From: Fimbriimonadaceae bacterium
GTDB taxonomy: Bacteria > Armatimonadota > Fimbriimonadia > Fimbriimonadales > Fimbriimonadaceae
Length of the DNA stretch: 64,000 nt
Reading direction: 5' to 3'
Assembly: GCA_022843485.1 (NCBI GenBank)
Contig: JALHNM010000001.1
Location: 558,001 to 622,000 of the forward strand
Under the pieces are notes generated by a model that had not been told where the DNA came from, did not search any database, and saw nothing but the letters and a program-made list of their open reading frames with translations. Below, in pieces: positions 48,974-51,654 of the stretch. Made by a program: the position numbers and the translations under genes. The first letter of the stretch is position 1. The number at the start of each line of letters is the position of its first letter.

Positions 48974-49695
48974 GCAAGCCTGTCATCGCGATCGTAGCGA
49001 CCTTTCGCGACGACCCGGCCGCCCCGGGGCAACGTGAGATCGCTTACGTCGGGCGGCCCTACATCGACCGGGTGATCGAGGCGGGCGGCGTGCCGGTCGT
49101 CGTTCCGCCGGGCGTGAGCGCCGAGGACATCGTCCCCCTCGTGGACGGCTGGCTCATCATGGGCGGCGGCGACCTCGACCCGCGCATCTACGGCGAGCAA
49201 CCTCACCCAGAAGCCAAGCTCGAACGGCCCGAGCGCACCGTGCTCGAGCAGGCCCTCCTCCAGAGGCTCGCCCCGTCCGTACCCGTGCTCGGGATCTGCT
49301 ACGGGTGTCAGTTCCTCAACGTTCAGCGCGGCGGATCGCTCCACCAGCACGTCCCTGACGTCGTGGGGCACGAGGAGCACTCCAGCCGCGACCTCCACGA
49401 GGCGCGTATCTCGGAAGGGACGCTGACCGAAGCGTTGGTCGGAGCCGGTTCGGTGGTGGGGCACAGTTCGCACCACCAGTCGATCCGCGAGGTTGGGAGC
49501 GGGTTGAGGGTGACGGCGCTCGCCGAAGACGGTACGATCGAGGGGGTCGAGGACGACGGGGGCCGGTGGCTGGTCGGCGTCCAGTGGCACCCGGAGCGCA
49601 CACCGAACGATGAGGCGACCCGGCAGCTCTTCAAGGCGTTCGTCGCCGAAGCGGCCCGGCAAAGGGAGGATCGAGACGCATGCGGTACTTGGTGA
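48970..49695 (+). CDS. Peptidase C26/gamma-glutamyl-GABA hydrolase-like glutaminase
   Basis: Of 241 aa. Class-I glutamine-amidotransferase fold: LIMGGGDLDPRIYGE, nucleophile in LGICYGCQFLNVQRGGSL, and the His-Glu pair in VGVQWHPERT. PuuD relatives hydrolyse gamma-glutamyl amides in polyamine breakdown, but the substrate here is not known. GTG 48970 overlaps the E2 stop (GTGA), so they are coupled. Confidence 0.85.
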   Translation: MSKPVIAIVATFRDDPAAPGQREIAYVGRPYIDRVIEAGGVPVVVPPGVSAEDIVPLVDGWLIMGGGDLDPRIYGEQPHPEAKLERPERTVLEQALLQRLAPSVPVLGICYGCQFLNVQRGGSLHQHVPDVVGHEEHSSRDLHEARISEGTLTEALVGAGSVVGHSSHHQSIREVGSGLRVTALAEDGTIEGVEDDGGRWLVGVQWHPERTPNDEATRQLFKAFVAEAARQREDRDACGTW

Positions 49696-50129
49696 ACGGC
49701 CACCCGGCCGAGTTGTCCCCGACCGTCGATGGCGTGTCCCTCGCCCGGCTCAGCGACCGCCTCATGGTCCGCAGCCCAAGAGGGACGGCTAGCGCGGTCG
49801 TCGTCCGCAGCGGCGACAAGGTCCTCGTCTCGTACCGAGGCCGGGTCTACACGGTCGAACAGCCGACCCCGGGGGGCGCGAAGAAAGCGGCCGGGGGATC
49901 GGGCGAGTCGCGATCGCCGATGCCCGGGGCGATCGTCGAGGTGTTCGTCAGCCCAGGCGAGACGGTGGAGGCGGGGCAGAAGCTCCTCGTCTTGGAGGCG
50001 ATGAAGATGCAGCACCCGGTGACGGCGCCGTTCGCGGGGACGGTCGCCGAGGTTCCCGTGGCCAAGGGCGACCAGGTCGGCGACGGCCAATTGCTGGTCC
50101 GGGTGGACCCTCTTCCTCCCGCCGAATGA
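49680..50129 (+). CDS. Biotin carboxyl carrier-type protein
   Basis: Of 149 aa. C-terminal biotinyl domain (~75-145): SPMPGAIVEVFVSPGETV and LLVLEAMKMQHPV, where the Lys in EAMKM is biotinylated. The N-terminal ~65 residues resemble the linker part of acyl-CoA carboxylase alpha chains. It probably serves a propionyl-, methylcrotonyl- or acetyl-CoA carboxylase whose other subunits are elsewhere. Overlaps the C26 peptidase gene by 16 bases. Confidence 0.87.
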   Translation: MRYLVNGHPAELSPTVDGVSLARLSDRLMVRSPRGTASAVVVRSGDKVLVSYRGRVYTVEQPTPGGAKKAAGGSGESRSPMPGAIVEVFVSPGETVEAGQKLLVLEAMKMQHPVTAPFAGTVAEVPVAKGDQVGDGQLLVRVDPLPPAE

Positions 50130-50133
50130 GCGC

Positions 50134-50523
50134 ATGAGCGAACGTCTGAGCCCAGACGAGTTCTCGAAACGACAGCGCGACTGGATCGCGGCGTACGAGC
50201 CCGCGTCTGCCTGGGATCGCCGGGACACCCTCAACGCGTTGCTCCAGGCGTTCCGGCGGCTCAGCTACTTCGAGGTCACGAAGAGCGGGGTCACGACCCT
50301 CCTCGTGCCGATGGTCGAAGTCAGGGGCCGGTTCTCGGTCGTGCGCCGGATCGCCGAGTTGGTGCAGCTCGACATCGAGACGATCGTGCGGGACGCCACC
50401 CCGCCCGGGGCCAAGACGGTCACCTCGGTCGCCAACAGCCCGGACGGGTTCACATTCCGGGTCTGCTTGGTGGAAGCCGGGGTCGCGACGTCGCTCCAAA
50501 TCCAGGCCGAAAGCCTTCGGTGA
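50134..50523 (+). CDS. Small soluble protein of unknown function
   Basis: Of 129 aa, no signal or membrane segment. N-terminal helices (SPDEFSKRQRDWIAAYEP) and a strand-rich C-terminal part (GVTTLLVPMVEVRGRFSVV, FTFRVCLVEAGVATSLQIQAE). It lies 4 bases after the biotin-carrier gene, so it belongs to that operon. I do not recognise the family. Confidence 0.65.
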   Translation: MSERLSPDEFSKRQRDWIAAYEPASAWDRRDTLNALLQAFRRLSYFEVTKSGVTTLLVPMVEVRGRFSVVRRIAELVQLDIETIVRDATPPGAKTVTSVANSPDGFTFRVCLVEAGVATSLQIQAESLR

Positions 50524-50547
50524 GACGAAACAGGGCGGACCTGTCCA

Positions 50548-50573
50548 TAGAATCCCTCGAAATGTGCTATATT
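50548..50573 (+). promoter_or_regulatory. Possible promoter boxes of the candidate ncRNA
   Basis: TAGAAT (50548-50553) and TATATT (50568-50573) are both acceptable -10 boxes. The first fits better because the RNA's closing helix begins at 50575. No consensus -35 is visible. Confidence 0.5.
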
Positions 50574-50574
50574 G

Positions 50575-50748
50575 TGAGCACGGGTGCCGTGAGGCCCGTG
50601 AGGAGGCGGCGAGTTCCGTTCCTTTCGAGGGCAGGCCGAGCGGTCCCGGCTCAAGGGTGAAGACGTTGACCGGCTGGATGGGCCGGTCGCCATGGTTAAG
50701 TCTTCTGTGCTCAGGCTTCTGCGGGGACGCGGGAGCCCTTCTTTTTTT
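50575..50748 (+). ncRNA. Candidate structured non-coding RNA, unassigned
   Basis: The 249-base gap between two genes holds no protein frame but a complete RNA-gene layout. A 7-bp closing helix pairs 50575-50581 (TGAGCAC) with 50707-50713 (GTGCTCA). Inside are GAAGAC (50659-50664)/GTCTTC (50700-50705) enclosing GACCGGC/GCCGGTC with a 7-nt loop, and smaller GC stems near the 5' end. Directly after comes a terminator (50714-50748). It does not match tmRNA, SRP RNA (no GGAAGGAAGC-type loop), RNase P or a riboswitch I know. It ends before the promoter of the next gene, so it looks like an independent transcript. Confidence 0.6.
50714..50748 (+). terminator. Rho-independent terminator of the candidate ncRNA
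   Basis: GGCTTCTGCG-ggga-CGCGGGAGCC (three G-T pairs) followed by CTTC and seven T. Confidence 0.85.
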
Positions 50749-50772
50749 CGCCGGGGGTAGTCTCCGCGGGCG

Positions 50773-51654
50773 ATGGTGCGCATCGTCGAGGTCGGCCCGC
50801 GGGACGGGTTGCAGAACGAGCAAGTTCCGCTCGACACCCGGCTTAAGGCCGCGTTCGTGGCAGCGCTGGCGGAGGCTGGCCTGCGCGAGATCGAGGTGAC
50901 CAGCTTCGTCTCGCCGAAGTGGGTCCCGCAGCTCGCCGATTCGGGTGACCTCTGGCCCCTCTTGGCCCCCGGACCGCTCTTCTCGGCGCTCGTCCCGAAC
51001 GCCAAGGGGCTCGAGCGGGCTTTGGAGGTGGGGGTCGACCGCATCGCGGTCTTCACCGCCGCGAGCGACGCCTTCACGACGAAGAACGTCAACATGACCG
51101 TCGCGGAGACCATCGAGGTGTTCGCGGAAGTGATCGCCGGGTTCCGGGCGCGCTACCCGGGCGGTTGGGTCCGGGGCTATGTGAGCACGGCGTTCGAGTG
51201 CCCCTACGCCGGGCGCATCGAACCGGCGCAGACGGCTGAGGTCGCGGCTCGGCTCCTCGAGTTGGGCGTCGACGAGGTGAGCCTGGGCGACACGATCGGG
51301 GTCGCCGCCCCGCCGGAGGTTCGGGCACTGGCCGCCGAGCTCGACGGCCCGAAGGATCGGTTCGCCTGGCACTTCCACGACACACGGGGGACGGCGGTCG
51401 CGAACGTGGCGGCCGCCCTGGACCTTGGGTTCACCGCTTTCGACGCGAGCGCGGCGGGGCTCGGAGGGTGCCCGTACGCGGTCGGGGCTGGGGGCAACCT
51501 GGCGACCGAGGACCTGGTCTACCTGCTCGAACGGTGGGGCTTGCGGACCGGCGTCAGCCTCGCGGCGCTGGCACGGGCGTCGTTGCCCGTTCTGGAGGCG
51601 CTTGGCCGCCGCCCGACGTCGAAGGCCCAGTTGGCGGCGCTTTCGGCGCCGTGA
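50773..51654 (+). CDS. mvaB: Hydroxymethylglutaryl-CoA lyase
   Basis: Cleaves HMG-CoA to acetyl-CoA and acetoacetate at the end of leucine breakdown. Of 293 aa. VEVGPRDGLQNE (catalytic Arg-Asp), EVTSFVSPKWVPQLAD, the metal His pair in WHFHDTRGTAVAN, and the signature GLGGCPYAVGAGGNLATEDLVYLL in parts (GLGGCPYA with the catalytic Cys). ATG 50773 follows TAGTCT by 9 bases (leaderless). Its last 101 bases overlap the converging membrane-protein gene. Confidence 0.93.
   Translation: MVRIVEVGPRDGLQNEQVPLDTRLKAAFVAALAEAGLREIEVTSFVSPKWVPQLADSGDLWPLLAPGPLFSALVPNAKGLERALEVGVDRIAVFTAASDAFTTKNVNMTVAETIEVFAEVIAGFRARYPGGWVRGYVSTAFECPYAGRIEPAQTAEVAARLLELGVDEVSLGDTIGVAAPPEVRALAAELDGPKDRFAWHFHDTRGTAVANVAAALDLGFTAFDASAAGLGGCPYAVGAGGNLATEDLVYLLERWGLRTGVSLAALARASLPVLEALGRRPTSKAQLAALSAP

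Follow-up and report, generated by a model that had tools for sequence, protein, structure and literature searches.

Intergenic trans-acting small RNAs with a Rho-independent terminator have their own promoter, a length of 100-200 nt and hairpins. Attenuation leaders and riboswitches place a structured RNA and a terminator immediately ahead of a metabolic gene. 6S RNA (RF00013), an independent gene, folds as a single long hairpin with a central bubble. Here, we analysed an intergenic gap in a 64-kb window (the whole stretch of DNA under study) of a Fimbriimonadaceae genome (G000). We propose, with a probability of about 45%, that this gap encodes a small RNA of ~165 nt, transcribed from an extended -10 promoter up to a terminator that both belong to it, and probably acting in trans.

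Reading the sequence directly, we find the gap at 50524-50772, with the 249 bases claimed for it in an earlier note on this DNA. It separates a gene for a 129-aa protein (50134-50523, + strand; stop at 50523) from the hydroxymethylglutaryl-CoA (HMG-CoA) lyase gene (50773-51654, + strand; ATG at 50773; NF004283, above cut-off), and it is flanked by genes for the breakdown of acyl-CoA compounds. The 129-aa protein matched no Pfam or NCBIfam family. Its gene adjoins that of a biotin carboxyl carrier protein (49680-50129, + strand) and is kept at the same place in several relatives.

The -10 box noticed earlier turned out to be stronger than claimed. It is the extended -10 promoter element TGCTATATT at 50565-50573 (+ strand). 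Scanning the whole window for TGNTANNNT, we found it once on the + strand, at the gap, and once on the - strand. The same element is present in 6 of 7 relatives, so that 7 of the 8 genomes with this layout carry it in the same place, and the exception, G025, reads AGG-TATCAT. The scan also showed it to be nearly the sole such motif in those RNA-bearing loci. A second -10-like sequence, TAGAAT, stands at 50548-50553, with the extended -10 following it at a distance of 20 bases; in G001 and G081, the promoter is preceded by a similar ATAGA. Because the extended -10 lies at 50565-50573, transcription would start near 50580 (±2, from the -10 position) and end at the terminator, giving a predicted RNA of about 165 nt (50580-50748, + strand) with the same layout in seven relatives. 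The intrinsic terminator (50714-50748, + strand) consists of a 10-bp stem and the seven T reported earlier (50742-50748). Its hairpin, at -18.6 kcal/mol, is much more stable than expected from shuffled sequences (z -3.8; 0 of 200 shuffles as good).

We located HMG-CoA lyase in 80 of 85 genomes of the family and inspected the sequence upstream of it in about 75. Eight genomes from four Fimbriimonadaceae genera have a promoter, 100-160 nt and a terminator ahead of the lyase: the window's G000, with extended -10, RNA and terminator directly upstream of the gene, and G001, G008, G016, G081, G082, G083 and G025. None of the other family genomes inspected showed this arrangement; there, the carrier-protein or 129-aa gene often runs straight into the lyase. 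Performing BLASTN with the gap in 60 relatives, we obtained the self-match alone. The HMG-CoA lyase tree was too poorly resolved to tell whether the RNA had a single origin.

All eight copies stand directly upstream of the same gene, as expected of a cis-acting leader, a riboswitch or attenuator in which the RNA and its terminator would set read-through into the lyase and thereby link leucine/acyl-CoA breakdown to a signal. To weigh this alternative, we turn to the lyase's own promoter. In 34 family loci with a placeable start codon, the score of -10-like hexamers has its peak at exactly 12 nt upstream of the start codon (mean 3.38 versus about 1.9 elsewhere). The lyase mRNAs of the family, these sequences suggest, are leaderless and have their own promoter. 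Hexamers found at exactly 12 nt include TAGAAT, CAGAAT and CACAAT, for example in loci L003, L022, L039 and L040. Among the RNA-bearing relatives, the -10 is exactly at 12 nt in four and within one base of it in two more. Since the lyase of these six (of eight genomes) has a separate -10, the RNA is not needed there as its leader. An unsystematic look at the window's fold also revealed no anti-terminator pairing, which speaks against a leader too. The earlier claim that the RNA ends before the next gene's own promoter holds loosely. Relatives have such a -10 at about 12 nt; the window itself offers only the imperfect -10-like TAGTCT (50758-50763, + strand), weak beside the relatives' peak at -12, which could start a near-leaderless lyase mRNA. 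In G025, a ribosome site follows within about 10 nt of the terminator, with no visible -10. Because the window and G025 are without a good lyase -10, read-through may be needed in these two, and a leader keeps some chance, although we consider it unlikely overall.

We then examined whether the RNAs are related. Five of them have long invariant stretches in common. We built a covariance model from those five and ran it over 113 genomes of the class. The model recovered its five, then G001 (E 2.9e-7), which was not in the model, and then a second place in G008. G001 is a congener of the window's genome, and its match lies exactly at the pre-lyase place. By this covariance model, six of the seven relatives' RNAs are homologous. 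A weak match in G076 was rejected, as it overlaps a coding start (ATGGCGACACTAAAAGAGATC) that looks by eye like ATP synthase gamma; the other weak matches in further genomes look coding or random and were discarded as well.

Covariation analysis, which the earlier note had suggested, gave a positive result for two helices of the relatives. With structures drawn by hand, P1a shows compensatory changes (GUUGGC/GCCAGC versus GUUGGU/ACCGGC in G083), and so does P3. Across four sequences, 91.7% of cells pair, compared with 32-50% when the partners are slid. Pairs changed on both sides number four with four sequences and five with six, counts that lean to the favourable side, as the structures were drawn from the same sequences and alignment A3 was fitted to the model. 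A GGGC/GCCC pairing, which hardly varies, would form a possible pseudoknot with P1a.

The minimum-energy fold of the window's copy has a 5′ domain at 50581-50648 (+ strand). In it, P1 (50581-50584/50645-50648 and 50586-50590/50640-50644) is stacked on P1a (50593-50596/50634-50637), which covaries in four relatives. Between the P1a strands lie hairpin P2 and the GAGGGCA motif (50627-50633). By hand, P1a and GAGGGCA can be matched to the relatives in agreement with this predicted fold, in which GGCC/GGCC of the window's copy encloses the hairpin and GAGGGCA as P1a does in the relatives. A P1 helix may begin at the transcription start, a suggestive result (combined p about 0.03). The internal two-step hairpin described earlier is borne out at 50659-50705 (+ strand), with 50659-50664/50700-50705 outside 50668-50674/50682-50688; it would be the counterpart of P3, which covaries in the relatives. 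The proposed 7-bp closing helix, 50575-50581 with 50707-50713, was not supported. Its letters pair, yet simple arithmetic predicts about two chance pairings of this length in a gap of such size, the minimum-energy fold gives these bases other partners, the predicted start lies downstream of five of its seven 5′ bases, and the helix is not kept in relatives.

The primary sequence of the window's copy has diverged far from the others. It matched neither covariance model R1 nor R2, even with the filters off. Its pairwise alignment is near chance: the best score, z 2.6, is with G016, and the other relatives score less, G001, its only same-genus relative, included. It also does not contain the 17-nt invariant 3′ segment GAAAGAGAUGAAAGUGC of the relatives. 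Because the congener G001 has a confirmed RNA in the same place, we take the window's copy with moderate confidence as a diverged orthologue; we infer its family membership from position, promoter and layout. The case illustrates that an RNA gene may retain position and promoter even as nearly all of its sequence is replaced.

This divergence bears on a plainer explanation, a terminator and spacer only, in which the upstream operon ends here, a promoter-like sequence is close by, and the folding is no more than that of any GC-rich sequence. The fold energies agree with it. The stretch 50548-50748 has z -1.8 (10 of 200 shuffles as good), the predicted transcript z -1.3 and its 5′ part z -0.3, and with the first two values so modest, fold stability alone is weak evidence for a structured RNA. 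The window's copy is also not recognisably conserved. On the other side, the extended -10 has no second copy on its strand in 64 kb, 7 of 8 genomes keep it, and in the relatives a conserved, covarying RNA occupies the corresponding place. We regard a mere spacer as unlikely.

The small-RNA gene remains our preferred reading. We consider it probably real, lineage-restricted and of a known general kind; it is probably transcribed, and its mechanism is what we infer from the sequences. The independent structured RNA postulated in the earlier note thus largely stands, by the want of an Rfam match, the layout in eight genomes and the covariation in relatives, with the closing helix removed from it. 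The RNA would fold into a stacked 5′ domain P1-P1a-P2 that exposes GAGGGCA, followed by the 3′ hairpin P3 and the terminator. In the relatives, a small hairpin is followed by the invariant, unpaired, purine-rich 17-mer just before the terminator, which looks like a pairing seed for target mRNAs. By this segment, the relatives' RNAs would act in trans, in an antisense manner, on such mRNAs; the window's copy is without the seed. Scanning five relatives for near-complementary sites of the 3′ segment, we found no shared target, and this counts against the small-RNA gene. So do the failure of both models and of alignment to recognise the window's copy, its ordinary fold stability, and the constant position beside HMG-CoA lyase, not one that a free-standing regulator would require.

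Matches to the 17-mer with up to two mismatches were only moderately commoner than those to a reversed control. Six were exact, and the inexact ones were mostly chance-like and not accepted as real copies. G008 has a single further exact 17-mer, located between eno and a DinB-like gene (L195, 1501-1625; the latter named from its translation by eye). There, the terminator is on the opposite strand from the 17-mer, so a transcript of this second site would be complementary to the RNA. The site, a single case, may be an antisense partner or a decayed copy of the RNA. We dismissed an AUG AAA GUG reading frame in the 3′ segment, as the length through the terminator does not stay in frame between relatives.

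We also compared the RNA with the known families. An Rfam 15 search, likewise suggested earlier, matched no family, riboswitches included, giving chance-level hits only (E up to 10 for the window and 1-5 for the relatives). As the earlier note had stated, the RNA is not tmRNA, SRP RNA or RNase P RNA: the genome's own copies score above cut-off elsewhere, tmRNA at 1861-2213 of this window and the other two on other contigs. Nor has it the single long hairpin of 6S RNA, the predicted minimum-energy fold being of two domains. The 6S covariance model matched nothing in the window or in G000. With the Rfam model, 6S was found in 0 of 25 genomes of this family (G000 and 24 others) against 7 of 16 in sister families of the same order; in Fimbriimonadaceae it is either lost or very diverged. 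A substitute for 6S that binds RNA polymerase or some other protein would suit this distribution, but is very improbable, as the RNA was seen in only 8 of about 80 family genomes, too few for a general replacement, and the predicted fold shows two domains.

A bolder version of our proposal is that these RNAs form a new, structured family of regulators in some Fimbriimonadaceae genera only, with perhaps a pseudoknot at the core (GGGC of GAGGGC with GCCC) and with an invariant 17-nt seed. The family would evolve so rapidly that congeners have next to no sequence in common, and would regulate the leucine/acyl-CoA breakdown genes around it; we hold this unlikely as a whole. In the literature we searched, no publication dealt with small RNAs of Fimbriimonas, and a conserved promoter-driven RNA would thus offer a first entry point to RNA regulation in these bacteria.

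In summary, the gap RNA resembles 6S RNA in its similar length and in being an independent gene; it differs in shape, has no match to the model and is limited to few genera. Like attenuation leaders and riboswitches, it joins structure and terminator directly before a metabolic gene, whereas in most relatives the lyase appears to have its own promoter past the terminator, and no antiterminator was seen. From the trans-acting small RNAs it differs in having no Rfam family, known target or known chaperone; with them it shares its own promoter, length, hairpins and, in the relatives though not in the window's copy, a conserved single-stranded stretch close to the terminator.
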